From assembly GCA_016184105.1 (NCBI GenBank), contig JACPDI010000012.1:10506-74505 (forward strand): a stretch of 64,000 nucleotides of DNA, read 5' to 3'. The stretch's first letter is position 1; every line of letters starts with the position of its first letter. A program made the translations under genes and the position numbers. Under the pieces are notes generated by a model, which saw only the letters and a program-made list of their open reading frames with translations, had not been told where the DNA came from and did not search any database. Shown one piece after another: positions 1 through 63,770 of this stretch. Origin of the DNA: Acidobacteriota bacterium (GTDB taxonomy: Bacteria; Acidobacteriota; Vicinamibacteria; Vicinamibacterales; 2-12-FULL-66-21).

Positions 1-1722
1 CAGCCATCGTTCATGGTGTGGATTTCCTGGCTGACTCGCCTCTGGGGCGACCTCCGTAAGGAGCGTCGCCCTCAAGACGTCAGCGGCAGCGGTTCGCTCA
101 CTTGGGGCTTCTTTTTTCGGCTCCTCAATCGGCGGACGCGGCACGTTCACCGCGGCATCTAGCTGTCTCGTCCTGAGTTCTTCCAGCCAACGCCGCAACA
201 GGTGAGTTGATTCGACATCCTCACGGTTATACCCCTCGACGATCACGCGTGTCGCTTCCGCTATCGACGCGGGATCTCGGGCCTCCAACGCCATCTCGAC
301 CGCGATTCGGTGCGTGGCGGCATCACGCAACGGGACCTTGCGTAAATATTCGTAGTACTGTTCCAGTTCCTTGATGGAGTAGCTCTCGACGCCCGCGCGA
401 ACCGCCTGTCGCACGATCGCGTACAGATCTACGAACCGCTTTTCACGTAGTAACTCGTCGAGCGCATCTTGCCGGGTCGCGTAGCGGCCTGCGAGGCGCT
501 TTAGAGCGGTCGTTTCATAAGGGGCGAAGTGATAGATGTGCAGGCCGGGATCGCTGGCCCGGGTTTCGGCGATCACGTCCATCAACGTCTCGAACGCGTG
601 CTGCTCCTCGAGCGGATCCATCGCCCACCACGAGCGATATGTGAATTCTTTACCGCCGCCGATATGTCCGAGCCCGAACAAATAATCGTGACCACCTTCC
701 CTGACAAACCGTGCGCCCTCAAGATCTAGAAACAGGTCCCCAGAGGAAGGTTCGGGTAATCGGCACAGTCCCTCACCAGCCGACACCGGCAAGATCCTGA
801 ACACTGGCTCGTTGCGCGTCCGCTGTTGCAGTTGCACCTGCGCCTGTTCGGCAATTCGATCGTAGGTTTCCCTTGCGCCTCGGGATGGCTTGAACGTGAC
901 GGGCACCGGCAATGTCCCGGCGGCCGCCAGCGTAGTTACGCCTTGAGACACCAGTTCAACGCGCTGAGAGCTGCCAACACCGGCGATAAACGACAGGTGG
1001 TCGTCGGCTCGACGCTGGCTGTTGCAGCGGTCCCACCACCGGCAAACGTCACAATGTTCCACGGGCTCAGGGTAGCTCTCGGCAAGGAGGGCATCTGGTC
1101 CCTTCGCGAGCATTTCCAGCATCTGAGCGCGAATCAACCTGAAGTACGCTGCGTAATCCGCTAAACGGTACTCGTGCACCGCAAACGGATTGCCAGGGGT
1201 TACTACGAAGAACCGTTGCGGAGTGGCGCCCTGGACCTCGGCGAGCAACTCCGTATAAAGCGCGAGCTGGAGAATCGTGCCGCCGCGCGTCTCACGTGCG
1301 AGCTTGGTGTCGTACGGTTCGTATTGGTATTCGCCGAGGCTCGTGCGCACGCCGGTTCCACACGGAACCTTGCGCAGAATGTCCGCATAACCCGTCCAGC
1401 CTTTCCCCGCGAAAGCCCCCTGATAGATCACGTCCGCGCCAGATTTGAGCGCTTCGAGCGTTCGCGCTACGCGGACGTCTGGCGACTCGTCTGTCGCAAT
1501 TTCGACAATGTTCAGCCCTTGGCCGCGAAGGTGATCGACATAGGCTCGCTCGTGTTTGATGCCGCGCTCACGCAGAAGCTGCAACGCGGCGTCCAACCGA
1601 GTCTCTGGAGGATCGATTGTGCCCATGGCCGCAGCCAGGTCCAATCCCGTTCGGTGTTTACAGGCAAGAAAATTCGCCAAGTCTGTCGCGGCCAACACCA
1701 CGGTGTCGTCGGTTACGCGCAA
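1..1722 (-). CDS. TM0106-family RecB-like nuclease (probably N-terminal part of a nuclease-helicase), truncated by the window edge
   Basis: An open frame runs leftward off the window; 574 codons are visible with no stop. I chose a TTG start at 1722-1720 because an in-frame TAA lies just upstream and GGAGG sits 5 bases before the TTG. Visible features fit the TM0106 RecB-like family: an early LACKHRTGLDL segment, GEYQYEPYDTKLAR (RecB-type D and K of the metal site), a late cysteine cluster including HCDVCRWWDRC (Fe-S or Zn type), an RNase H-like stretch starting LFLDLEG, and EGYNREDVESTHLLRRWLEE. In the family the N-terminal nuclease is usually followed by a superfamily-1 helicase; that part would lie outside the window. 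It is the last visible gene of the Ubl operon, 65 bases after the SDH_sah gene, so co-transcription is likely but not proven. Its role in the system, perhaps as nucleic-acid effector, is inference. Confidence 0.8.
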   Translation of the reverse strand, partial: MRVTDDTVVLAATDLANFLACKHRTGLDLAAAMGTIDPPETRLDAALQLLRERGIKHERAYVDHLRGQGLNIVEIATDESPDVRVARTLEALKSGADVIYQGAFAGKGWTGYADILRKVPCGTGVRTSLGEYQYEPYDTKLARETRGGTILQLALYTELLAEVQGATPQRFFVVTPGNPFAVHEYRLADYAAYFRLIRAQMLEMLAKGPDALLAESYPEPVEHCDVCRWWDRCNSQRRADDHLSFIAGVGSSQRVELVSQGVTTLAAAGTLPVPVTFKPSRGARETYDRIAEQAQVQLQQRTRNEPVFRILPVSAGEGLCRLPEPSSGDLFLDLEGARFVREGGHDYLFGLGHIGGGKEFTYRSWWAMDPLEEQHAFETLMDVIAETRASDPGLHIYHFAPYETTALKRLAGRYATRQDALDELLREKRFVDLYAIVRQAVRAGVESYSIKELEQYYEYLRKVPLRDAATHRIAVEMALEARDPASIAEATRVIVEGYNREDVESTHLLRRWLEELRTRQLDAAVNVPRPPIEEPKKEAPSERTAAADVLRATLLTEVAPEASQPGNPHHERWL

Positions 1723-1787
1723 GGTACCCTCCGCGGCAATGGACCGATCAATTTACGGGTCCGCCAAATCGTTCACGGCACTCTCGA

Positions 1788-2738
1788 TCAAGAGGAGCTT
1801 TCAGTCGGCAGTGACGCGTACTCTGACTCGAATAGCTTGTCGCGATCCTTGATCGCCAGACGCTGGAGGCAGTAAAGCTGCCAGTATGACTGCCAGCGCT
1901 CCGTGGCAGGCTCAAGGCGCTCGACGGTCAGGCCGATTTGACTAGCGGCTTCCCAGCCAATCATCTGGCCGTGTGTCAACCACTTCTCGGTGTTCAGTAA
2001 CTCGGCAGCTATCGCCGTAAAGTTGCCGGTTGTTGACCTGAACATCCCTGTCCTCAGTTGATCTTCCGCGAATTTGCGGGCTCGCTCTCGCACGGCCTCA
2101 AAGAGCTTCAAGGTCGCGGGATCAAACTTGCTCAGCATGATCCTGGCCGCGATGTCCTCCGGATCGTCTTGCAAGGTGTCAGAGAACGCCCTATATGCGT
2201 CAAGGTAGTTCTGTACGGAGTGACGAATGGCGTTTCCGTTGCCATCGCGGAGAATTACTTGCGGATCGATCGGCCCCAACTCTGACGTATCGCTCATGAC
2301 AATGGCGTCGGCGCCGAGCGCCATAAGCGTCCCTGCGCTCTTGGCAAAATCTGGAACGATGACGCGCAAGCGCCCAGTGCCCACGCACGTGTGAACCAGG
2401 GTTATCAGCTTTTCCGCTGCGTCGATATCGCCACCGCCAGTGTGGAGCAACAAGTCCAGATCGCGACCCCTTTCCACGTTATGGAGGAGGTCCACAAAAA
2501 ACACAATGTCATCCCGATCGATCGAGGCCGCGTTGCCGCTCACAAAACACACAAGGTAGGTGCCGTACGACTCGCGAATCTTCTTAAGAAGCGCCTGTCT
2601 TTGATAGCGTGGCGCGTTGAGCGCCTGAAACATCGGCGTTTTGGTTGGCTGGAGCGGCGGAACATCTGGAGTGGGTGGCACCTCCCCGGAATTCTGCACC
2701 TTCACGTCGGCAACGTCACCATCGTTTACGCTTGCCAT
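1788..2738 (-). CDS. SDH_sah-family ClpP-fold serine protease
   Basis: A 316-residue protein of the serine dehydrogenase proteinase (SDH_sah, PF01972) family, a soluble relative of the ClpP/SppA fold. The frame can be extended to 2822, but the ATG at 2738 has AGGAGT 8 bases upstream and overlaps the preceding gene by 23 bases, as expected in an operon. Visible motifs are LLHTGGGDIDAAEKL (the GG oxyanion loop), PDFAKSAGTLMALGAD with the candidate nucleophile Ser in KSAG, and SELGPIDPQ. The N-terminal ~40 residues are polar and proline-rich, with no signal peptide. Its position between DUF6527 and the RecB-like nuclease suggests it degrades or processes proteins marked by the Ubl machinery; that is inference. 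SDH_sah genes also occur alone elsewhere. Confidence 0.85.
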   Translation of the reverse strand: MASVNDGDVADVKVQNSGEVPPTPDVPPLQPTKTPMFQALNAPRYQRQALLKKIRESYGTYLVCFVSGNAASIDRDDIVFFVDLLHNVERGRDLDLLLHTGGGDIDAAEKLITLVHTCVGTGRLRVIVPDFAKSAGTLMALGADAIVMSDTSELGPIDPQVILRDGNGNAIRHSVQNYLDAYRAFSDTLQDDPEDIAARIMLSKFDPATLKLFEAVRERARKFAEDQLRTGMFRSTTGNFTAIAAELLNTEKWLTHGQMIGWEAASQIGLTVERLEPATERWQSYWQLYCLQRLAIKDRDKLFESEYASLPTESSS

Positions 2739-3087
2739 GCTTGTGACTCCTATCAGGAACCCAAATGACTCGACCCCTTCGAAGGATGTAGTGGCAGCGT
2801 TTCTCCGGAGCGTCAAAATCAACGCTCGGCCACACCGTCAAGACGTCCGACTGCCGAAACCGCCAATGCGGCCATCGCCCCCTGTCAAGGTTCAAGAAGA
2901 TGCGATGGCCGCTACCGCACGCACAGTCGAAAACCAGCCACTTCGGCGTCTCGCCGGACTGCACGAGAATGACAGCACCGTCCTTTAATCGTTCCGGAAC
3001 TTCATCGGCAGCTTCGACGACGCTGACGATTCGCCAGGTCGGCCCAGTTAGGCGTCGCCACCAATCGCGCCAGCCTAGACCGCCCAC
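2716..3087 (-). CDS. DUF6527 family protein
   Basis: A 123-residue protein with a GTG start at 3087 that overlaps the end of the E1 gene by 13 bases, so translation is probably coupled. The central part carries FDCACGSGHRIFLNLD, the Cys-rich CxCGxGH signature of DUF6527, followed by tryptophan-rich WPHWRF and LTVWPSVDF segments. The C-terminus is very basic (HKHGKRKRW) and overlaps the start of the SDH_sah gene. DUF6527 genes are repeatedly found beside E1/E2/Ubl genes in bacteria. The cysteine/histidine pattern suggests a small zinc-binding fold, so a substrate- or E3-like adaptor is conceivable. No biochemical function is established that I can cite. Confidence 0.8.
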   Translation of the reverse strand: MGGLGWRDWWRRLTGPTWRIVSVVEAADEVPERLKDGAVILVQSGETPKWLVFDCACGSGHRIFLNLDRGRWPHWRFRQSDVLTVWPSVDFDAPEKRCHYILRRGRVIWVPDRSHKHGKRKRW

Positions 3088-4460
3088 GCCTGCTCCAGAA
3101 AGGGTTCAGTGCGTCCGAGGCCGATCTTTCGCGTGATCGGATCGCAATAGTGGTTCTTGCGCGGCTCGGCGCTATTCGTTGAAATTTCCCGGTCGTGATG
3201 TCGGAGCAGGATTTCGCTTGGCCGATACTCTGGCCCGTACCCGATGAGCCGCTCAAGTAATTCAGCAACCGCTGCGCACGCCACTGCCGTGGTGAACGTC
3301 ACAACCGCTGGTTCCACCGCTCCGAGAGCTGGCGCATACCCTTCGTCGGCCCGGCGCACTCGTTCCGCGGGGGTCAGAAGTTCGGCGGCCGCTCGACTCA
3401 GGTCGACTCGCCCACGACATACGAGGCATGCCTGACCCGGAGTTAACACTGTCACGCGGCCGTCAATTCCCGAGAGTGTCCCGTCGGTAGTGCTGGTCAG
3501 CAACACGCCGCAGTCGATAACAGGCATGAGCAAGTAAGTCGCCGCGCGCGATAGCACGAGCCGCCCAGCATTGTCGTCAGTGCAGCCGAACACAACATCG
3601 AGACCGGTTAATGTCTGAGCAGCGTCGCGCGTCGTCAACATGGCATTCACTGCCTCCACTTGCGCGCCTTCCGCCACAGCCCTGAGATGCGCCGACAGGA
3701 CATCGACTTTTGGTCGGCCAACCTGTCGAGGGAACGAACCGTAAACTCTCGTTACGTTGCTTTCTGACAAGTGGTCAGGATCAATCAGCGTGAATCGCGT
3801 GACGCCAAGCCTTACAAGCTGCTCTGCAACCGCTGAACCTGTGCCCCCGCATCCGACTATCCCGATGCGCAAGTCTGATAGCGTCTCTTGCACGGCCTTG
3901 CCAAAGGCCCGAACATTACGGTCGAACGATGGCGATAGGCCGGTCTGCTCAGCATCGAAGGTTCGATATAGGCGCAGGCGATCGCCGACAATCCACAGTC
4001 GATCGATTGACGGCGTGCGGCCATCGTGACCATGCAGTTGGCCCGTAAAACACAAGCCTCGCTCCCGCGGAGACAGGATCAGTGCCCCGTAGTAGTCACT
4101 GTTGGTCCGTAGCCGAAACAAATCTGCGAGCTGCGTGTCTACGATGCGATCGTGCGGACTAGGTCTCGGCCATGAATCGACGCCTGGATGCGTGTGCACC
4201 CATATCGCTATAGCGCCATCTTCCTCCGCTCGTCCGAGCGCGTGTACATACCCTTCGGAGGCGACCGTTAGACCATCGGTTTCGCGCCGCAAATAGGCCG
4301 AATCGTGAACGCTGTGAAACTCGCGACCGAGTAATCTCAGATCACCGTTTGGTGAATCAAGAATCCTAGCGGTTAACACTCCGCCTGATTCCAAAGGTTG
4401 GCAGGCCGCTTTCTCCAGCTCACCCGCCATAGACGAGGGAAGAACAAGAGTGACCGCCAT
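3075..4460 (-). CDS. JAB (JAMM) deubiquitinase-E1 (ThiF) fusion protein
   Basis: A 461-residue two-domain enzyme. The start is the ATG at 4460, which overlaps the E2 stop as TGATG (translational coupling); the frame extends to 4580, but that part lies inside E2. Residues ~10-150 form a JAB metallopeptidase: an early ESGG glutamate, then HTHPG and SPHD, which complete the Hx Hx7-SxxD zinc motif. Residues ~180-420 form a ThiF/E1 adenylyltransferase: GCGGTGS nucleotide loop, DPDHLSESN, VTRVYG arginine, VFGCTDD, and VIDCGVL with a candidate catalytic cysteine. ACLVC and a later YCDP may bind structural zinc. In known systems E1 adenylates the Ubl C-terminus and JAB matures or removes it. Fusion of opposing activities in one chain is a feature of the multiubiquitin/E2-E operon class. 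Confidence 0.9.
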   Translation of the reverse strand: MAVTLVLPSSMAGELEKAACQPLESGGVLTARILDSPNGDLRLLGREFHSVHDSAYLRRETDGLTVASEGYVHALGRAEEDGAIAIWVHTHPGVDSWPRPSPHDRIVDTQLADLFRLRTNSDYYGALILSPRERGLCFTGQLHGHDGRTPSIDRLWIVGDRLRLYRTFDAEQTGLSPSFDRNVRAFGKAVQETLSDLRIGIVGCGGTGSAVAEQLVRLGVTRFTLIDPDHLSESNVTRVYGSFPRQVGRPKVDVLSAHLRAVAEGAQVEAVNAMLTTRDAAQTLTGLDVVFGCTDDNAGRLVLSRAATYLLMPVIDCGVLLTSTTDGTLSGIDGRVTVLTPGQACLVCRGRVDLSRAAAELLTPAERVRRADEGYAPALGAVEPAVVTFTTAVACAAVAELLERLIGYGPEYRPSEILLRHHDREISTNSAEPRKNHYCDPITRKIGLGRTEPFLEQAWAV

Positions 4461-4849
4461 CAGCTGTGATTGCCCGTGTATCGCCGGAGTTCTTGTCGAA
4501 TCAACGCCACAAAGCTCTCCAACGAATCGACCCCTGACTTCCACTGGCCTCCGTTGAAATGCCTTGACCACCGCTGCCACGACCGGCCGAGATGTTGCTC
4601 AACGCAATTGGTAGCTGGAATCGGTTGCCCATTCGTCAAATTCACGGCCGGCCCAAACCACCACATGTCCGGCGGAACGTCCGGATAGCCAGGACTTAGT
4701 CGGAGCAACAGATCGGACTCGCGACGGTCGTAGCCAGGTGGCAAAGGAAAGCCTGGTAAGACAACGCAGATCATGTTTGCCTCGGGGACCACTTCGTATG
4801 TCTGACCGCGTCCCTCGAGGTATGCGCGGTCTTCAGCCGGCAGACTCAT
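4460..4849 (-). CDS. E2-like ubiquitin-conjugating protein (Prok-E2_E type)
   Basis: A 129-residue protein matching the prokaryotic E2 family E. An N-terminal helix and beta-meander (AYLEGRGQTYEVV, ICVVLPGFPLPPGYD) leads to the SPGYPDVPPDMWWF segment, equivalent to the E2 Y-P-x-x-P region. ATNCVEQHLGRSWQRWSRHF follows, with the single well-placed cysteine expected to carry the Ubl thioester and a nearby histidine and tryptophan. The C-terminal helix is SLESFVALIRQELRRY. It starts 6 bases after the Ubl gene ends and its stop overlaps the E1 start, so the three core genes are tightly coupled. It would transfer the Ubl from E1 to a target; the target is unknown. Confidence 0.88.
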   Translation of the reverse strand: MSLPAEDRAYLEGRGQTYEVVPEANMICVVLPGFPLPPGYDRRESDLLLRLSPGYPDVPPDMWWFGPAVNLTNGQPIPATNCVEQHLGRSWQRWSRHFNGGQWKSGVDSLESFVALIRQELRRYTGNHS

Positions 4850-4855
4850 CGAACC

Positions 4856-5122
4856 TCACCTCTGATGGCGACCAGGGTTGATTTGCGACGGCGCCGTGAA
4901 AAGCCGCAGGCCGTTGCGAATATCAACGACCTCGTTGTTTTCGATTTTCTTGTCCTGGCCCCCGGGGACGACCTGGAACAGGTCGCGATCGGGGCCGACG
5001 GGCGTTGTGGGCAAACTTCGCAGCTCACTGCCGGTCATTTGCTCTTTGGTGACGGTGTAATGAACACGATCAATCTGGATCTGAAACTGCTGAGGACCAT
5101 GGGGTTTCTCGTCTTGGGGCAT
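4856..5122 (-). CDS. Ubiquitin-like protein (multiubiquitin family, single domain)
   Basis: An 88-residue protein, first gene of the operon, with AGGAGG 6 bases before the ATG at 5122. After a ~10-residue polar leader there is one beta-grasp domain (about residues 12-75): FQIQIDRVHYTVTKEQMTG, SELRSLP, then LFQVVPGGQDKKIENNEVVDI and LRLFTAPSQINPG. This is the multiubiquitin (PF14452) pattern, but in one copy rather than the tandem repeats often seen. The chain ends PGRHQR rather than in a bare GG, so the JAB domain downstream may need to trim it to ...NPG before activation. That maturation step is inference. Confidence 0.87.
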   Translation of the reverse strand: MPQDEKPHGPQQFQIQIDRVHYTVTKEQMTGSELRSLPTTPVGPDRDLFQVVPGGQDKKIENNEVVDIRNGLRLFTAPSQINPGRHQR

Positions 5123-5144
5123 CGCTTCCTCCTGTTGTGATACT

Positions 5145-5174
5145 ACGATACCATGACACCATGATACTTGACAA
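5145..5174 (-). promoter_or_regulatory. Candidate promoter of the Ubl operon
   Basis: Read on the minus strand there is TTGTCA (5174-5169), an 18-base spacer and TATCGT (5150-5145), placing transcription start near 5138, about 16 bases before the Ubl ATG, with the AGGAGG site inside that leader. The -35 box occupies the same base pairs as the -35 of the divergent regulator. Sequence match only. Confidence 0.5.
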
Positions 5175-5186
5175 CCGTGGTGTCAT
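5153..5186. promoter_or_regulatory. Candidate operator: 9-bp perfect inverted repeat
   Basis: ATGACACCA (5153-5161) and TGGTGTCAT (5178-5186) are exact reverse complements separated by 16 bases. The repeat is centred on the shared -35 region of the two divergent promoters. This is where a dimeric ribbon-helix-helix repressor could switch both transcripts. A shorter direct repeat, CCATGA twice at 5151-5163, overlaps the left arm. Confidence 0.55.
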
Positions 5187-5196
5187 CCCCCAAAAT
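5168..5196 (+). promoter_or_regulatory. Candidate promoter of the ribbon-helix-helix gene (leaderless transcript)
   Basis: TTGACA (5168-5173), a 17-base spacer and CAAAAT (5191-5196) predict a transcription start at about 5203. That is exactly the ATG chosen for the regulator, so its mRNA may be leaderless; no Shine-Dalgarno sequence is visible. Confidence 0.5.
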
Positions 5197-5202
5197 GGGG
5201 CC

Positions 5203-5409
5203 ATGAAACCTGCCAAGTCGATGACGATCCGTCTTTCAGCGGACCAAGCGGAGGCGCTAGAAACGATCGCGACGGTCGATGATCAGTCCATTGCGGAGGT
5301 GATTCGCGCTGCCATCGCCGATCATGTGGAAAAGCGTCGGCACGAACGGACGTTTCAGGACGGTCTAAAGCAGCGAATCGACAGGGCGAAGCGCATGCTC
5401 AGTCGCTAG
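5203..5409 (+). CDS. Ribbon-helix-helix (CopG/Arc-type) transcriptional regulator
   Basis: A 68-residue protein. MTIRLSADQAEALETIA is the strand-helix start of an RHH domain and SIAEVIRAAIADHVEKRR its second helix; the basic C-terminal half (KQRIDRAKRMLSR) is an extra helix. The longer frame from 5137 includes promoter sequence, so I start at 5203, where the predicted promoter gives a leaderless message. It is divergent to the Ubl operon across an inverted repeat. The likely role is autorepression and repression of the operon. RHH proteins are also antitoxins, but the following 276 bases contain no convincing toxin. Confidence 0.75.
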   Translation: MKPAKSMTIRLSADQAEALETIATVDDQSIAEVIRAAIADHVEKRRHERTFQDGLKQRIDRAKRMLSR

Positions 5410-5685
5410 GTGCTGAAGCCACGCCAGTATCTTTGCCCGCCTCCCGAAAACTTGACCGCTGCGCACGAAAGGGCCCGTCCTGACCGGAGACGGTCCAACG
5501 ATCTGCACCGATTTCCTAGAAACAACGAAGCGAGCCAAAATCACCGACGACGTTTGGGTCGCCGCTGGACCACATTCTCGGGCTGTAGCTCGGAGGCAAT
5601 GAACGTCGGCATTTCCCTCAACGTGCTGTTTTTGATTTCGTGAGCAGCGCTACACGTGCTCCTGTCGTCCAACGCGAGTGCGCGG
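5410..5685. other. Spacer without a clear gene
   Basis: A 77-codon GTG frame (5410-5643) begins right after the RHH stop but has no recognisable domain. A second plus frame, without a start codon, reads TGDGPTICTDFLETTKRAKI and could be a decayed coding remnant. Neither is supported enough to call. Confidence 0.3.
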
Positions 5686-6370
5686 CTAACAGTCAATGAC
5701 TGTTGGCGGATGCACAAGCCTGTACCGCTCGTCGACGAGGCTCACGTTGTGGATGGGGATTCCTTGATGCTCGTATCGACCGTAGCCACCATGAACGTGG
5801 CCACAGATCACGATCTTGGGCCGGGCCCTCTCGACCGCCGCTAGCAGCTCCCACATGCCGCAGTTGACCGGCGTCGAGATCAAACGCACGGTCGCCGTAG
5901 CCACAAGGTGGCTGATGCGACACCAAAATGTCGATGCCGAACGGAATCGCCGCGTAGATAGGTTCGAGGTCGCCGGCCTCCTTCATGAAGGCCCATTGCA
6001 GGAACGTGTTCGACCACGGAGTGCCCCACACAGAGATCTGGCCAGCCCCGGGCACAGGCATGGTCGTCTCTTCATCAACCAGGATCTGCATGTCCGTCGA
6101 GCGCGCATGTTTTGGGGAGTCGGAGCGAAAGCTACACGCCTGCCCGCACCAGTCATGATTGCCCCACGTCAGAATCTTGTGCGTCGCGGGCGCGTTCGCC
6201 AGCCACGGACGAACCTTCTGGTCGAACCAAGCCTTCTGCTGATGAGGATCGTGCCGTGCCACGAACGGGCCGAAGCGGTCCGGGCAGATATCGCCAGCAA
6301 CGATCAAGAGATCGCACGGCGGGATGTCAGGCAGAAATCCGTGCTGGTCACTGAGCGCGACGATCCGCAT
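5686..6370 (-). pseudogene. Calcineurin-like metallophosphoesterase, interrupted by a frameshift
   Basis: Read leftward from ATG 6370, the first ~165 codons give the metal-binding motifs of the family in order: DQHG, GDICPD, GNHDWCG and SHQPPCGYGD. After FDLD the frame turns to unrelated sequence (ending at 5693). A frame offset by one base continues at once with TPVNCGMWELL, ARPKIVICGHVHGGYG (the GHxH motif) and a normal end at 5686. A single lost base around 5873-5880 explains both. Joined, the protein would be ~228 residues, a usual length. It is either a genuine null allele or a sequence error. The substrate is unknown; the gene lies inside the island. Confidence 0.8.
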
Positions 6371-6890
6371 GGTGAACTCACCACAACGATCTCATCGTCT
6401 ACGCAACCGTGGAAGTCGAAAGCGAGAATGAAGGATGTTCAGAATCTGGATGTGTTCATTAATAACAAACACGCCGATTCGCTGAACGATGGCCTCGGGA
6501 CGGTTGACCCGTCCGAGGCCTCCAGAGCGTTGCCAAAATGTCTCCAAAACTCCGGTGGAATCCGGAGGATTGCGGTCGACTGCCGAGAACTGACGCGTGG
6601 CAACAAGGCGTTGGGACTCAAACTCTTAGAGCCAGAAGTGACGCGCCATCAACAAGTTAGATGTGGCCGCTCGTAGAATTCGAATCCCTGCCTCACCGCC
6701 AGTTAAGTTGTTCTATCCATTGACCTTTCCTTCGGAGACGTTCCCCGTCTCCAAAATGTCCCCAGACCTCTGTACGGCCGGCGGCGGTTCAAGCGAACAC
6801 GAAGTATGGACGCTTCTTTCAGTTCCCGTGAGGGCGCCTGCCGTGCGTTCGCGCACCGAATTGAAGCCCCACATCTCGCGGCCATCCACG
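6371..6890. other. Gene-free island end with hairpins
   Basis: No frame here shows a recognisable domain. It contains a strong hairpin (GGCCTCGGGACGG / CCGTCCGAGGCC, 6491-6520, one bulged base), the displaced tRNA 3' end (6675-6701), and a second perfect 7-bp hairpin (GGAGACG / CGTCTCC, 6734-6752) just downstream of the AbiEii remnant on the minus strand. Confidence 0.5.
6675..6701 (+). other. Displaced tRNA 3' end, candidate attachment site
   Basis: The sequence from the T-loop onward, TTCGAATCCCTG then CCTCACCGCCA, is a proper tRNA 3' half: T-loop TTCGAAT, T-stem 3' strand, acceptor strand CCTCACC, discriminator G, CCA. The 5' strand of the T-stem would have to be CAGGG but reads TAGAA, so no whole tRNA is present. 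Islands that integrate into tRNA 3' ends leave such a copy at the far end. From its orientation the intact tRNA, expected to begin GGTGAGG and be of the Ser/Leu long-arm kind, should lie left of the window, placing the Ubl operon inside the island. Confidence 0.6.
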
Positions 6891-7346
6891 TCACCGTGAC
6901 CGAACTTCTGAGAGGATGGGGTCAAGCCAGGCGCCCAGTAACCGGTGGACATCGTCAAGGTTTGTCGGCAGGCCAACGCGCTCTGCTTCCCTCCGATAGC
7001 TGACTGCAAGTTCGCGCAGAGGGGGCGGCAGCCGATCGGGGACGGGGTGCGTAGCACGTCGGTCGAACACGCGCCGAATGACGTCCTTGAGGAGCCTGGC
7101 GTCCACCCGAGCGTGATCCGCATCCAAATCCACCGAGACTCGGGCATGCTCACCAAGTCTGGTCTCGAGAGCCATGCCTCCCTTGACCGCCCATCGGTTC
7201 GGCGCAACTTTCGTGAGTCGTACGATCACGCGTTCCAGGGCGGCCTGGCGACGGATGATGTATGCGGGAACGCCGAGACGACGGGCCCGGTCGCGCAGCG
7301 TGGCCTCGACCGCAGCGCGAAAGCCGGCGGGCGTCGCGTACTCACG
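6891..7346 (-). pseudogene. AbiEii/AbiGii-type toxin with a large internal deletion
   Basis: From the GTG at 7346 (overlapping the antitoxin stop by several bases, as is normal for abiE pairs; an ATG at 7394 is an alternative) the protein is ~151 residues; family members are about 280-300. The N-terminal part is typical: a helix ending PNRWAVKGGMALETRLGEHAR and the nucleotidyltransferase motif VDLDADH. It then jumps straight to the family's C-terminal segment (RRVFDRRATHPVPD, LPPPLRELAVSYRREAERVGL, LLGAWLDPIL). Roughly 100 central residues, including the rest of the catalytic core, are missing while the frame stays open. The product should be inactive. Confidence 0.75.
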
Positions 7347-7779
7347 CACGCTTGCCGGCCTCCTCGATTGCTCGTTCGACAAGCTGTCGAACACGTGCCG
7401 ACCTGCGCGTTACGGCCGTCCGCAGTTCGTTCGCTGATACGAGACCTGTCGCGAGTGCGCGAGATGTCGCCTCGACAACCACGCTGGGATCGGCGCCAAT
7501 GTCGGCGACATCGGCAACGGTACGAGCGGGAGACGTGACTTGGACGCCGAAGCGGCTTGTGACCTCCTCTCGTCGCAGCGGCACGGTTGTCGTGTGCAAA
7601 GTGACGGCGGTTGTCGTTTGTGGGGTGCGGGGACGGCGGTCGCGAGGCAGTGTGAGGTGGATCTCGTGCGAGCGGGACGGCGCCAATTCGTACAGCGCGA
7701 GCGCAGTATCGTGTGACACCACACCCCCACGTGAGGCGAATCTGAGCCAGGCCGCGACGACGTCTTCGTGGGAACACAC
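7342..7779 (-). pseudogene. AbiEi-family antitoxin lacking its N-terminal winged helix
   Basis: A 145-residue frame (GTG 7779) matching the AbiEi antitoxin C-terminal domain: SHEDVVAAWLRFASRGGVVSHDTALALYELA, HEIHLTLPRD, then VTSPARTVADVAD. Full-length relatives are ~200 residues and begin with a DNA-binding winged helix; here nothing resembling it lies upstream before the ACT gene end at 7846. It overlaps the toxin remnant in the usual antitoxin-toxin order. Without the DNA-binding part and with a gutted toxin, this type IV toxin-antitoxin pair is most likely a relic. Confidence 0.72.
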
Positions 7780-7845
7780 AAATCCCGCGGTGTCGGAGAA
7801 TCCAGCACCATCAGTACCTGGACGTGCGCCGCTGCGCGGTCGCGA

Positions 7846-8256
7846 CTAGGCGGCACCGAGCAGCGCTGCTGTTTTCTTCACATCTTTCGGCGCCACCCAG
7901 AAGATGGCTCCGTAGCGCCCGTTCACCGAGACGGCGTCGATCGCGGTCACGTTGATCCTCGCCGCGCCCAGGCGCTCCAGCAGTTCCGCGGCCGCGCCGA
8001 CGCGATCGTCGCCCTGCACCAGAAAGCCTCGTTTGGGGCCGACGACCCGCCACTTGGCTCGTTTGGCGGCCTGCTTGAAGGCCGCCGGGTCCTCCGGAAA
8101 GAAGTCGAGCTGCGTCCGGCGACGCTCGGGAAACCCCGAGAACGCCAGCAGATTCACGCCGGCCTCCTTCAGGACGTTGAGTACGCGCGCACCTTCACCC
8201 GGCTTGTCCGGCACCGTCAGGTAGAAGTAGTCGACGCCGCGAATCGTATCAGCCAT
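7846..8256 (-). CDS. ACT-domain protein
   Basis: A 136-residue protein with two ACT-like halves: [34 protein letters not shown] at the N-terminus and [32 protein letters not shown] in the C-terminal half. ACT domains bind amino acids or other small ligands and regulate metabolic enzymes. The ATG at 8256 has AGGAGA 9 bases upstream and is the intact start, although the frame stays open to 8937 through an NAD+ synthetase remnant. No catalytic domain is attached. The ligand and partner are unknown. Confidence 0.75.
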
Positions 8257-8364
8257 GTGTTGGTCTCCTGGTTGAGTGGGCGAGCGCCACTCGGTCAATC
8301 CCCTCCCGGTGGCACGCGCGCCGTCCGGCACCTCGCGTGACGCCCAGGATGTCGCCGCGGTGGA

Positions 8365-8592
8365 TCTCGCCTCGAGCAGCGCGTCCTGGTGGAACAGATC
8401 CTCATTCGAATAGCCCGACAGCCCGAGCTCGGGGAACACCGCCACGGCCGCGTGCAGCTTGTCGGCGCGCGCGGCCAACTCGATCCTCTGCGCGGCGTTT
8501 TGGATCGGGTTTCCGAGCCGGAGAGTTGGAACGCAGACCGCGATGCGAACGCACCCGTGTCGATAGATCGAATCGAACGGGGTGCGGCTCAT
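8365..8592 (-). pseudogene. nadE: 5' remnant of glutamine-dependent NAD+ synthetase
   Basis: Seventy-six codons from ATG 8592 read like the N-terminus of the nitrilase-type glutaminase domain of Nad[21 protein letters not shown], then [28 protein letters not shown], which contains the glutaminase-domain glutamate in FPELG. Homology stops there, and the rest of a ~650-residue enzyme is absent. The frame continues through ~36 unrelated codons into the ACT gene without a stop. It is a deletion relic; a complete nadE would have to exist elsewhere. Confidence 0.75.
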
Positions 8593-8736
8593 GACATCTC
8601 TGATTTTACTTGGATCGCTCTCTGCCCCGGGGAACGCAACGGGTATGCCCGTCGTTCGTGAACGCCCGGCGGTACACCTCCCGCCTCCGAGGGGCATGCT
8701 CCTCCGAGGGTGAAACACCCCGGAGGAGGTCCACCG

Positions 8737-9153
8737 ATGATGAGGCGATTGCCAGATATCGCGATCAAGGAATGCGTGGGTGAGCTGCGCGCCGCGTGCC
8801 GGCTGCCGATCGAGCCGGATGCGCTCGACGCGCTCATCGAACGTCTCCGTCCGAACTTCGAGCGGATCCTGGCGCACCCTGACGGGGTCAGGCGCTGGGC
8901 GGATCACGGCCAGCGCATGCGCGACAACGGCCGGCATCTGGGCGCGCTCGCCGACTTCTATGGCAACCGCGCCGGCCTCGTCGATCGCGATGCCCTGATG
9001 CGGGCGTTCCAGGCAATCCGCGAGGACTGCACGGTGCGCGCGCAGAGCACGCCGCTCGCGTACGAGTACTGCCGCCCTCCCGAGGCAGAGGATTCGTCGC
9101 GCGAGGACGAGGACTCCGTGCGTGGCGGCGTGCGCGTACCGGAGCCCGTCTAG
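8737..9153 (+). CDS. Hypothetical protein
   Basis: A 138-residue protein I do not recognise. The ATG at 8737 follows GGAGGAGG at 8-9 bases; an upstream GTG (8710) is less likely. It is mostly helical, with a charged first half ([52 protein letters not shown] split over two helices) and an acidic, disordered-looking tail ([12 protein letters not shown]). It has no signal peptide or membrane segment. A 10-bp hairpin closes the unit at 9168-9198. The strong ribosome-binding site and codon pattern support a real gene. Confidence 0.6.
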
Positions 9154-15378: not shown

Positions 15379-18300
15379 TGCGTCTTGTGTGTCTGCCCAT
15401 CGTCCTCGTTCTGGTCGGTTTCCACGCGCTCGGAATCCGATCCACCAACCGCGCAACGCCGGAGAGCGACCGCCGAATGTCGTTCCACAACCGGTTGCTG
15501 CTGAACCGAGCGGTTGTGAGCAAATTGAAATCGATCGAAGTACTGGTGCTGGCCGCGGGCGATGCCCGGCCCGATGGGTTCATCCTCCACACCGAGGAGA
15601 TCGCCGCCCTCGCCAGGCACGTCGGCGGGCGCGTTGTCCGTGCGGAACGAGATATCGGGTACCTCCGGATCGAGATGCCCACCGAGCGGCTTCTCGAACT
15701 GGTCGCATCGCCGGCGATCGCGGCGTACCAGATCGCGTCGCTGTCGAAAGCGAGCTGGTACAGGGACGGGCCGCCCATGTCGAACGCCGAGATGTTTCGC
15801 GGCTTCGAGGTCGCGCCAATCGCGGCCAGCGAGCCGAGCGACACGCACGCCGGCCTTCCGCCGCTCTCCACGGCCGCGTCGCGCGAGCCGGGCTACACAG
15901 CCGACGACGACGTCGGGATCGGCGAGTGGCTGGCGGAGCATCCAACCTTTGACGGACGGGGCGTGACGATCGCGCTCGTCGAGACCGCGCTCCCCTCCTT
16001 CACCGATCCGACGCTGCGGCCGGCAAAGACGCTGGACGGGCGCGACGTGGCGAAGATCGCCGGCATCCTGAACACGCGCGGTCCCGCCGACCGCGACGAC
16101 ACGCGGGTCCTCCTCGATACCGAAGTGCAGGTTGATACGAGCTGGGCGCGCGTCTGGAGCCGGACGTACGTCCTGCCGCGGCCCGGCGCGTACCGTGCCG
16201 GACTCCTGAGATTGCCGGCCGGGTCGAACCTCGTGCACCAGTTCTGCGTTCTCGAGCACGAAGAGACGCGGGAGGTCTGGATCGACTCGAACGGCGACGC
16301 GTCGTTCCAGGACGAGACGCCGCTCGCCGACGTCAACGAGCGGTTCGAGCCGCGGTTCCTGAAACTGACGCACCCGAGAAAAGCGGACGTCAGCTTCGTG
16401 ATGGGTCGCGGGCGTGAACCGAACACGGTTCACATCTACATCGGCAGGGGCAGCCACCAGGCCATGACGGTCGGCGTGGCCGCGGGAAGCAGGACGGAGA
16501 AGAGCCTCGCGTACGGCGTCGCGCCGAACGCTCGTGTCCTGCTCGTGCGCAACCACGGATCGGATTACGAGCTGGACGTTCTGCTCGAGGGCTTCATCGA
16601 CGTGGCCAAACGCCCGGACGTGGACGTGATCAGCTCGTCGGCGGGCATCACGATGGTGCCGGACACGGCAGCGGACTTTGGCGGTCTCCTGTTCCAGCGA
16701 CTGGCCGACGTGTACCGAAAGCCTGTCCTCCTGGGCGCCGGCAACACGCACTCCGAGCTGGCGACGTCGAAGGCGCTTGGCGCAGCTCTCACTGTGGGCG
16801 GCTCTCTCGGACCAGCGACCGCCGCCGCCCTCCACGGGGGACGGCCGCTCGAGGGTTTGATGGTTCACCGCATCAGTGCGGCCGGACCGTCGATCGACGG
16901 CGCGATCAAGCCGGATTTCCTGGCGCCGATGGAACGGCTGGCCGTCGATCTCCCCTGGAACCGCGGCCTCGAGGCGGTGCCCAGGAACGCCCCCACGCAT
17001 CGGCTTCCCGCCGGCTATCAAATCTCATGCTGCACGTCGGCCAGCAGCCCGTACGCGGCCGGCGTCGCGGCGCTCCTCATCAGCGCGGCGAAGCAGCGCA
17101 AGGCGCCGTACTCGGCCGAGAGTCTGGCCCGCGCCCTGAGGCTGTCGGCCCGGTTCCTGCCCGGCTTCGGCAGCCACGAGCAGGGGAACGGCGTGCTCGA
17201 CGTCAACGCCGCCTGGCGCGCGCTGATCGATTACGTGGAGGCGCCGCGCATCATCGCCTCCGCGCGCATCGTCCACCCGCTGGCGCGGTACGCCGCCCGC
17301 GGATCCGAGGGCCAGGGCATTTTCGAGTTCGAAGGATGGACGGCCGGGATGAGCGGCACGCGGGAGATCCGGCTTCGGCGGGAGTCGGGACCTCAGTCGC
17401 CGACCAGCTACCAACTGACCTGGACCGGCAACGACGGGACGTTTCACACGGCGCCGCGGGTGATGCTGCCGCTCGGGAGGACGATCGCCGTGCCCGTGAG
17501 GATTGCGCCAAGGACGACAGGAGCGCACAGCGCGCTCCTCAATTTGCGTGACGCGTCGAACGCGGTCGTCTTCCGCACGCAGGCCACCATCGTAGCCGCC
17601 GATCGCATCGACGAATCCAGCGGATCGGTTCGCATCAGGGGGCGCGTCGGCCCGGCGCGCATCAACCGGCAGTACATCCACGTGCCGGCCGGCGCCGGCG
17701 CGATCAGCTTCGATGTCGATGTAGTTCAGGGCGTTGTCGCGCCATCCATTCTGCCGGCGCACGGTCTCTTTCCCGGCTACTACCCCCACGTGCACCCTGC
17801 CGCAGGCCGGTACGTCGGCAAAGGAAGGCACACGGTCCTCATCCCCAACCCGGAGCCAGGCACGTGGGCCATTCACCTCGACAACAGCTCGCTGCATCCG
17901 CGCTTTCCCGACGATCCGACGCCGGCCGACGACCGCGACGCGGAGTACGTGGTGACGATGCGCATCCTTGGCGCGGCCGTTCGCCCGGCCGCGTCATCGG
18001 CCGGCTCGATCGCGATTGAGGCGACGAACCTTGGAAGCGCCATTCGCGAGCCGGTGTTCATGGTGTCCCCAGCCACTCTGAAGACTCACCGAGCGGAGTT
18101 CCTCGGGAGCGGCCTGCCGCGCACGATCGAGATGTCCGTCCCGAAAGATGCCGCGGCGTTGTCGCTGCGGGTGCGCTCGGAGCAGCCGGCGGCGACCGGC
18201 GTGGAGCTGTATCTGTACGACTGCACGACCGGTGAGTGCTTCGCGTACGACATCGCGTTCCCTGCCGCCGGTGCGCACTCGATAGTCGTTCGGCGACCGA

Positions 18301-37729: not shown

Positions 37730-37817
37730 GGAGAGGTGGCCGAGTGGTCTATGGCGGTGGTCTTGAAAACCACTGTGCCGCAAGGCACCGGGGGTTCGAA
37801 TCCCTCCCTCTCCGCCA
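37730..37817 (+). tRNA. tRNA-Ser (anticodon TGA)
   Basis: 88 bases with CCA encoded. Acceptor GGAGAGG pairs with CCTCTCC, and the discriminator is G. The D-arm is GGCCGAGTGG. The anticodon loop CTTGAAA, flanked by GGTGGT / ACCACT, gives TGA. The variable arm TGTGCCGCAAGGCACC is long, as in class II tRNAs, and the T-loop is TTCGAAT. It decodes UCA and related codons. It lies between DUF523 and the convergent serS gene, with 66 bases to the serS stop. Confidence 0.95.
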
Positions 37818-55905: not shown

Positions 55906-62085
<6,180 letters not shown>

Positions 62086-62435
62086 TCGTCTCCTCGCGGG
62101 GCCGCCTGTTTCGTGGCCCTGTATTTCTTCAATGTGCAACTCAGTTCACCGCCACTGTTGCGGCGGTTGTCACTGCGGCGCGGGTGGCCTCGTGGCGGCC
62201 TTGTATTTCCAATAATCGTCTAGAAAATAGAATAAAAAGTATATCAAGAATTAGGTGCTGTTGAAAAGCGGACGGCAGCCACTTAATCCTTGAAAATCAA
62301 TAAATTAGGCTGTGCACGGATCCGGGGTGCGGGTGCGCATGCTCCGGCCACGTACGGCGGACAAAATCAGGCCCGCAGATCATCGACAGAACACCCACAC
62401 CTCGCCGGAGAGAACACTGTGGAAAACCCGCTGGA
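62086..62435. other. dnaA-dnaN intergenic region: candidate part of oriC
   Basis: 350 bases without a gene. It includes an AT-rich block (62201-62262, and again 62281-62308) that could be the unwinding element. A DnaA box TGTGGAAAA (62418-62426) lies next to the dnaA stop. A candidate dnaN promoter reads TATACT on the minus strand (62243-62238) with a weak -35 TTCAAC 16 bases upstream. Bounding GC-rich hairpins (for example CCGCC / GGCGG near 62151-62165) are present. Confidence 0.55.
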
Positions 62436-63770
62436 CTACCGGAAAGACTCGATGAAACCGGTGATCTGGCTGTTGAAATCCTGGTCGGTCCTGCGCAGCT
62501 CCTCGATCTTCCGGATCGAGTGAATGACGGTCGAGTGGTGCTTGCCGCCGAAGCTCTTGCCGATTTCCGGAAGCGACGCGTTTGTGAGGGCCTTGCACAA
62601 ATACATCGCGATCTGGCGCGGCATCGACACGGACTTGGCGTTGTTGCGCGACTTCAGATCGCCGAACTTCAACTGGTAGAACTCGGACACGAACTTCTGA
62701 ATCTGCTCGATCGTGACCGCCTTCTCCTCGTGGCCCAGCACCTTCCTGAGCACTTCCTGCGCGAGGGACAGCGAAATCTCGCGCCCCGTCAGCGACGCGT
62801 ATGCGATGAGCCGGATGAGCGACCCTTCGAGTTCACGGATGTTCGATTTGATCTTCCCCGCGATGTAGATCGCCACGTCATCGGGCAGCGGGACAGCTTC
62901 CGCTTCCGCCTTGCGCTTGAGAATCGCGACCTTGGTTTCAAGATCGGGGAGCTGGATGTCCGCGATGAGGCCCCACTCGAACCGCGAGCGCAGGCGCTCC
63001 TCGAGCGACGGAATTTCATGGGGAGGACAGTCGCTCGAGATGACAATCTGCTTCTGTGAATCGTAGAGCGAGTTGAACGTGTGGAAGAACTCGGTCTGCG
63101 TTCCTTCCTTGCCGGCGAGAAACTGGACGTCGTCGACGAGAAGGACGTCCACGCTGCGATAGCGCTCGCGGAAGTCCAGGATCTTGTCGTACCGGACCGC
63201 GTTGATCATCTCGTTCATGAACCGCTCGGACGAGATGTACGTCAGCTTCAGGCCGCGCGCGTTCGTCAGCACGTAGTGCCCGATCGCGTGCATCAGGTGC
63301 GTCTTGCCGAGACCCACCCCTCCGTAGATGAACAGCGGGTTGTACGAGCGCGACGGTGCTTCGGCGACGGCGCGCGACGCGGCGTGTGCGAACTGATTGG
63401 AGGGCCCGACGATGAACGTGTCGAACGTGTAGCGGGGATTCAGACCGGCTGGACTCGTGATCAGCGGCTGGTCGATCGCCGGCGTCGGCGGATCCCCCGC
63501 CGCAAACGGGGCCGCTCGCGGCTTCCCGTCGTCGATGACGAACTCGACCGTCGATCCTTTGCGGCCGACTTCGGCGAGCGCCTCGTCGATGACGGCCGCA
63601 TAGTGCTTGACCAGCCAGTCTCGAAACAGGGGGTTGGGCACACAGACCGTGATGGACCCGCCGCTTTCGGAGACGAACGCGGTGGGCTGGAACCAGGTCA
63701 GGAAGCTGTGCCGGTTGACCTTGGCTTCAATGCAGGTCAGAACCTGATCCCAGATGTTAGGGCCTGTCAT
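62436..63770 (-). CDS. dnaA: Chromosomal replication initiator protein DnaA
   Basis: 444 residues. Domain I (IWDQVLTCIEAKVNRHSFLTWF) and a linker lead to domain III AAA+ (NPRYTFDTFIVGPSNQFAHAA, GGVGLGKTHLMHAIGHY, VDVLLVDDVQFLAGKEGTQTEFFHTFN, SSDCPPHEIPSLEERLRSRFEWGL, in pieces). Domain IV carries the DnaA signature (MPRQIAMYLCKALTNASLPEIGKSFGGKHHSTVIHSIRKIEEL, in pieces). Boxes lie on both sides of the gene. It is transcribed leftward toward dnaN, away from the presumed rpmH side. Confidence 0.97.
   Translation of the reverse strand: MTGPNIWDQVLTCIEAKVNRHSFLTWFQPTAFVSESGGSITVCVPNPLFRDWLVKHYAAVIDEALAEVGRKGSTVEFVIDDGKPRAAPFAAGDPPTPAIDQPLITSPAGLNPRYTFDTFIVGPSNQFAHAASRAVAEAPSRSYNPLFIYGGVGLGKTHLMHAIGHYVLTNARGLKLTYISSERFMNEMINAVRYDKILDFRERYRSVDVLLVDDVQFLAGKEGTQTEFFHTFNSLYDSQKQIVISSDCPPHEIPSLEERLRSRFEWGLIADIQLPDLETKVAILKRKAEAEAVPLPDDVAIYIAGKIKSNIRELEGSLIRLIAYASLTGREISLSLAQEVLRKVLGHEEKAVTIEQIQKFVSEFYQLKFGDLKSRNNAKSVSMPRQIAMYLCKALTNASLPEIGKSFGGKHHSTVIHSIRKIEELRRTDQDFNSQITGFIESFR

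Follow-up and report, generated by a model that had tools for sequence, protein, structure and literature searches.

A displaced tRNA-Ser(GCT) 3' end as the probable junction of two tandem integrative elements in an Acidobacteriota genome

The locus and its tRNA fragment

The window, by which the whole analysed stretch of 64,000 nucleotides of contig C12 of an Acidobacteriota draft genome is meant, carries in its left part a ubiquitin-like (Ubl) conjugation operon, followed by a fragment of a tRNA gene, the last codons of a tyrosine integrase gene and a toxin-antitoxin pair. The features around the fragment, with the evidence for each in brackets, are listed below; element 1 and element 2 denote the mobile elements to the left and to the right of the fragment.

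1-6525, no strand: visible part of element 1 (right end at 6526-6701)
1788-5122, minus strand: Ubl operon, cargo of element 1, with multiubiquitin (4856-5122), Prok-E2_E (4460-4849), ThiF/E1 (3075-4580), DUF6527 (2716-3087) and SDH-type protease (1788-2822) genes (Pfam)
6526-6678, plus strand: right end of element 1, with arm-like repeat and conserved block, up to the core (172-bp match, profile)
6528-6559, plus strand: arm-like repeat CCAAAATGTCTCC in the right end (direct repeat with 6746-6770; also matched by the left-end model)
6632-6651, plus strand: conserved 20-bp block, window copy CCAGAAGTGACGCGCCATCA, consensus CCAGAAGTCGCGCGCCATCA (alignment of 22 right ends)
6679-6701, plus strand: core, the tRNA-Ser(GCT) 3' end and att site (exact match to intact tRNA-Ser(GCT) in relatives)
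6702-6790, plus strand: left, integrase-side end of element 2 (about 90% identity to the left end in genome G027; profile)
6713-6790, minus strand: truncated tyrosine integrase, last 25 codons and stop, EPPPAVQRSGDILETGNVSEGKVNG* (73% identical to residues 357-382 of the G027 integrase)
6746-6770, plus strand: arm-like repeat CTCCAAAATGTCCCC in the left end (direct repeat with 6528-6559; left-end alignment and model)
6887-7779, minus strand: AbiE toxin-antitoxin pair, AbiEii and AbiEi (90-92% DNA identity to G001:C59:5288-6570)

The core (TTCGAATCCCTGCCTCACCGCCA) consists of the T-loop TTCGAAT, the 3' half of the T-stem CCCTG, the acceptor strand CCTCACC, the discriminator G and CCA, while the 5' half of tRNA-Ser(GCT) is missing here and no tRNA was called by ARAGORN upstream of or across these positions. 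The sequence is identical in 23 of 23 bases to the 3' end of the intact tRNA-Ser(GCT) genes of relatives (G002, G010, G027, G082 and others), as is found for islands targeted to tRNA genes (tDNA). These genes have the 5' acceptor strand GGTGAGG, and in G027 all 7 of 7 acceptor pairs form. The original prediction of a displaced tRNA 3' end, whose partner should start with GGTGAGG and end in the same sequence, is thus borne out, and the partner type is tRNA-Ser(GCT). The extent assigned to the fragment (6675-6701) has to be shortened, since its first four bases (AGAA, 6675-6678) are element-end sequence outside the tRNA. It had also been claimed that the upstream half of the T-stem does not pair; with TAGAA in this place both of the two loop-adjacent pairs fail, as claimed, while a chance pairing of the three outer positions is possible. 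The tRNA-Ser(TGA) at 37730 was considered as the partner and rejected, having 2 mismatches in the 23-mer and lying on the wrong side for a 3' fragment on the plus strand.

The genome's own assembly of 4.24 Mb has a single exact copy of the 23-mer (the reversed-pattern control gave 0), against about 1e-7 copies expected by chance for a given 23-mer when both strands are counted. In the family set it was found in 7 of the 12 genomes, the own one included, being a displaced end in G001, G006, G007 and G008 and the end of an intact tRNA-Ser(GCT) in G002 and G010. Chance similarity or a degraded tRNA pseudogene, for which the short length of the fragment speaks, has a probability close to nil: it is refuted by the exact 23/23 match against this expectation and by the conserved ends, described below, which meet at the core from both sides. 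The 23-base fragment is a genuine trace left by the insertion of mobile DNA.

Element ends on both sides of the core

About 165 bp left of the core are homologous to the DNA left of displaced tRNA ends elsewhere, and the similarity in these alignments stops at CCA. The 172-bp match of this right end reached 83% identity to G001 and 68-80% to other genomes, and the end is present in about 20 of the 162 genomes of the order (68-83% identity), where it adjoins tRNA 3' ends that have been displaced; the own genome has a further copy on another contig, which precedes a displaced tRNA-Gln(CTG) end and shares 69% identity with the 172-bp stretch ending at CCA. The right-end profile gave E=5e-46 over 6526-6701 with the window among the rows used to build it, and the left-end profile E=2e-19 at 6702-6790 with the window among its 12 rows; because the window contributed rows to both, the independent evidence for the two ends is the pairwise identities. 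The 22 aligned right ends share one order, namely repeats of the column-conserved CGTCTCCAAAATGTCTCCA, the block CCAGAAGTCGCGCGCCATCA and then a target-dependent tRNA 3' end, which is of the Ser(GCT), the Gln(CTG) or the CTCTCTCC type (like tRNA-Ser(TGA)) or, in one case, resembles tRNA-Asp. Within the phylum sample the exact 20-bp consensus was confined to the order, where 6 of the sampled genomes had it, and IMG/VR contained no exact copy of the block.

The claim that the mobile DNA lies to the left of the fragment agrees with this conserved end and with the lower GC content there (0.587 for 1-6700 versus 0.674 for 9001-64000). The right end at 6526-6678 therefore places the Ubl operon inside an island. 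Element 1 appears to continue leftward across a 64-N scaffold gap directly left of the window (C12:10442-10505) into a 10.4 kb locus (L036), an assignment that depends on the scaffolding because the gap intervenes; the tRNA fragment with its two flanking ends lies well away from this gap. The cargo of this locus includes an AAA_12-domain helicase, a ResIII helicase, a RE_endonuc nuclease, a DNA methyltransferase fusion and a Vsr nuclease. At 6243-8481 of the locus the ResIII helicase and RE_endonuc frames overlap as two ORFs, like a frameshifted type III-like restriction gene. Two further ORFs without Pfam match at the left end of the contig (3-2017 of the locus) are 45-63% conserved near tRNA-Gln in G010 (L063 18084-19761) and are therefore probably mobile.

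On the right side the first 80 bp or so (6702 to about 6780) share about 90% identity with the DNA that follows the intact tRNA-Ser(GCT) in G027, and of the integrase gene everything except the 25 codons is gone. The AbiE pair, which is damaged (AbiEii is without a stretch of about 395 bp present in G001), lies right of displaced tRNA-Ser ends in G001 as well and is the probable cargo of element 2. No right end of element 2 was detected by profile in the window and C12:74001-94000. Its delimitation by synteny was also rejected, since the family does not conserve 9-33 kb at this position and shows synteny only from the CNNM-type genes near 34.8 kb onward. Element 2 presents a left att site and a truncated integrase, to be compared with the att sites on both sides and absence of integrase or transfer genes that define a CIME (cis-mobilisable element). 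At 7846-8937 a single ORF combines an ACT-domain protein with a fragment of the NAD synthetase N-terminus (by eye), possibly as a pseudogene remnant.

It was originally predicted that the fragment marks an island boundary. A single island on the left, with ordinary chromosome beyond the fragment, would agree with the right-end homology, the orientation and the lower GC, and most of the DNA toward the right of the window does look chromosomal (gyrA, gyrB, dnaN, dnaA and serS by reading); nevertheless this is very unlikely, being contradicted by the left end with integrase stub at 6702-6790 and by the AbiE pair common to the G001 array. The boundary claim is therefore not retained: directly to the right of the fragment a second element of this family begins with its integrase-side end, so that there is mobile DNA on both sides. 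As a separate observation, gyrA, gyrB, dnaN and dnaA stand together at 55906-63770 (by reading), which suggests a replication-origin region.

The complete arrangement is seen in G027, where one contig (contig 205, L100) holds a whole element of 14.8 kb, from tRNA-Ser(GCT) through the right end and displaced core:

2459-2552: intact tRNA-Ser(GCT)
2564-3712: integrase, pointing at the tRNA
17167-17336: right end and core

The order is tRNA-Ser(GCT), left end, integrase, hsdS, hsdM, hsdR, a PDC-M21B gene, Avs2, right end and displaced core, with type I restriction-modification and Avs2 as defence cargo. This element provides both boundaries and the integrase that is missing from the window. A tyrosine integrase beside an intact tRNA, proposed as the mark of the partner site, is found in relatives, and the proposed origin of the displaced 3' end by site-specific integration is supported. 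Intact integrases are present in G027, G097, G006 and G123.

In the window 6526-6701 and 6702-6790 are contiguous and represent the right end of one element and the left end of the next with one common core, as in a tandem array. Because right end, core and left end follow each other at 6526-6790, the fragment joins two tandem elements; the reading as a junction of two tandem mobile elements of the same family, inserted by tyrosine recombinases at the tRNA-Ser(GCT) 3' end in at least two events, is given a probability of about 0.88. Comparable junctions of right end, core and left end were recognised by inspection in G026, G037, G088, G123 and G159. In G123 (L112 2191-2935) an intact tRNA-Ser(GCT) is followed after about 0.5 kb by a displaced right end and core and then by an element with intact integrase; the 0.5-kb stretch is a very short remnant element.

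According to the proposed mechanism, an integrative element would insert by its tyrosine recombinase into the 3' end of tRNA-Ser(GCT), and its attP would hold a copy of the last 23 bases, so that insertion rebuilds the tRNA and the old 3' end is displaced to the far side of the element. This would have happened at least twice. The first event may have left element 2, of which the left end, 25 integrase codons and probably the AbiE pair have survived decay; later element 1, of the same family and carrying the Ubl operon and restriction genes, would have integrated between the tRNA and element 2, making 6679-6701 the common att site between its own right end and the left end of element 2. The decayed element 2 is the member farthest from the presumed target gene, and in tandem accretion the decayed member is usually the farthest one (PMC7563491).

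The element family and related systems

When GTDB species genomes were scanned with the integrase alignment, 26 loci were obtained, mostly in Acidobacteriota, some in Myxococcota and one labelled Gemmatimonadetes. Where the target is visible, it is a tRNA-Ser(GCT), Asp, Gln, SeC, His, Ala, Pro or tmRNA gene directly adjoining the related integrase, and in some copies an HTH_17 excisionase-like gene stands ahead of the integrase. In the integrase tree the Asp users form one group and the Gln users another, Ser(GCT) needs two changes, and targets are clustered more than in shuffles. IMG/VR gave only two integrase matches (23-29% identity), and phage and plasmid records contained no match of at least 60% to the integrase (the best about 26%). 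By Pfam and PADLOC no phage structural, packaging or satellite hallmark genes were found among the larger genes of L036, the left part of the window and the G027 cargo.

The mechanism of tDNA-targeted islands and tandem accretion is known and of textbook character. The Islander catalogue of genomic islands at tRNA and tmRNA genes contains 125 tandems of two or more in a table of 3919 islands (PMC4383910), and its islands likewise have a tyrosine integrase within, a displaced 3' tDNA fragment at the far end and tandem arrays (PMC4383910). In contrast to them the array in the window has no tDNA in the assembly and its right-hand member has no integrase, while the integrase family and end sequences are specific; with the tDNA missing and this integrase lost, the Islander rules would not resolve the array. 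The CIMEs and ICE/IME accretion arrays of Streptococcus are similar in their tandem att sites and in a decayed, integrase-less element farthest from the target gene (PMC7563491), but among the larger ORFs of the visible, right-hand part of element 1 there was none recognisable as a relaxase, coupling or VirB4-like gene, and the outer att of element 2 was not found. Defence islands borne by integrases at hotspots, for example in E. coli, also combine an integrase, interchangeable defence cargo (type I restriction-modification and Avs2 in G027) and a fixed site (PMC10121019); they differ in belonging to another element family, the present host being an Acidobacteriota order with distant Myxococcota relatives.

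No publication on such elements specific to Vicinamibacter or Acidobacteria was found in the limited, open-licence literature searched, in which the family appears to be undescribed. It is conceivable, though doubtful as a whole, that there is an undescribed family of small elements (about 5-15 kb where complete) in Vicinamibacterales-type Acidobacteriota with Myxococcota relatives, composed of an HTH_17 excisionase-like gene, a tyrosine integrase and a conserved end of about 160 bp with a near-invariant 20-bp block. Such elements would shuttle defence cargo, here the ubiquitin-like conjugation operon, between tRNA and tmRNA genes and accumulate by successive insertions at one tRNA; for the 20-bp block a role as directionality or transfer site is conceivable. 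The tandem junction puts the Ubl operon and the restriction genes next to it within an integrative element, not just near a suspected boundary. The succession of right end, core and left end is a signature met repeatedly in an order that consists mainly of uncultured Acidobacteriota. In fragmented genomes that lack the tRNA or integrase, and with which standard island finders therefore cannot deal, elements of this kind with defence cargo can be delimited by the end profiles.

The array in its own assembly

The own assembly is incomplete, and among its 37 Rfam tRNA hits none is tRNA-Ser(GCT); an intact copy would presumably lie to the left of the array. Contig C12 extends only 17.2 kb beyond the fragment on the left, and an extension by overlap was rejected because its first 60 bases are shared by no other contig. 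The integrase of element 1 is likewise absent from the assembly and would lie off the contig, the only integrase in the window being the 25-codon stub of element 2. In relatives tRNA-Ser(GCT) is situated left of gltX. The own gltX (contig C25) has no tRNA-Ser beside it and the array of the window is on another contig, so a rearrangement in this genome is likely.

The position of the array away from gltX would also suit the attP of a single circularised element taken up into the chromosome in some other way, for example by homologous recombination, as an excised circle would show the same order of right end, core and left end. This is considered highly improbable: integrase-mediated insertion anywhere would split the core, and the same order occurs in several other genomes, in G123 about 0.5 kb downstream of an intact tRNA. 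A chimera of the draft assembly, joining two unrelated contig ends at a repeat-like core, is hardly credible, since the 23-mer is unique in the assembly and the same junction order is found in independent assemblies, even if the draft consists of 69 contigs, ends of tRNAs and elements resemble repeats and the scaffold gap is 6.7 kb from the junction.

A second tandem array was observed in the same genome, with an intact tRNA-Gln(CTG) (L052 18378-18451) and displaced Gln ends at L050 1557-1579 and L051 5604-5626 (contigs C25 and C10). These contigs are joinable by an overlap of about 127 bases, and if the join holds, the displaced ends lie about 3 kb and about 27 kb downstream of tRNA-Gln(CTG); only the second of them carries the right end of the element family of the window. 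Near the end of a further contig, from position 1501 of L048 (C5:49289), there is the 5' half of a tRNA-Ser(GGA)-like gene, in which the similarity to tRNA is lost after the anticodon.
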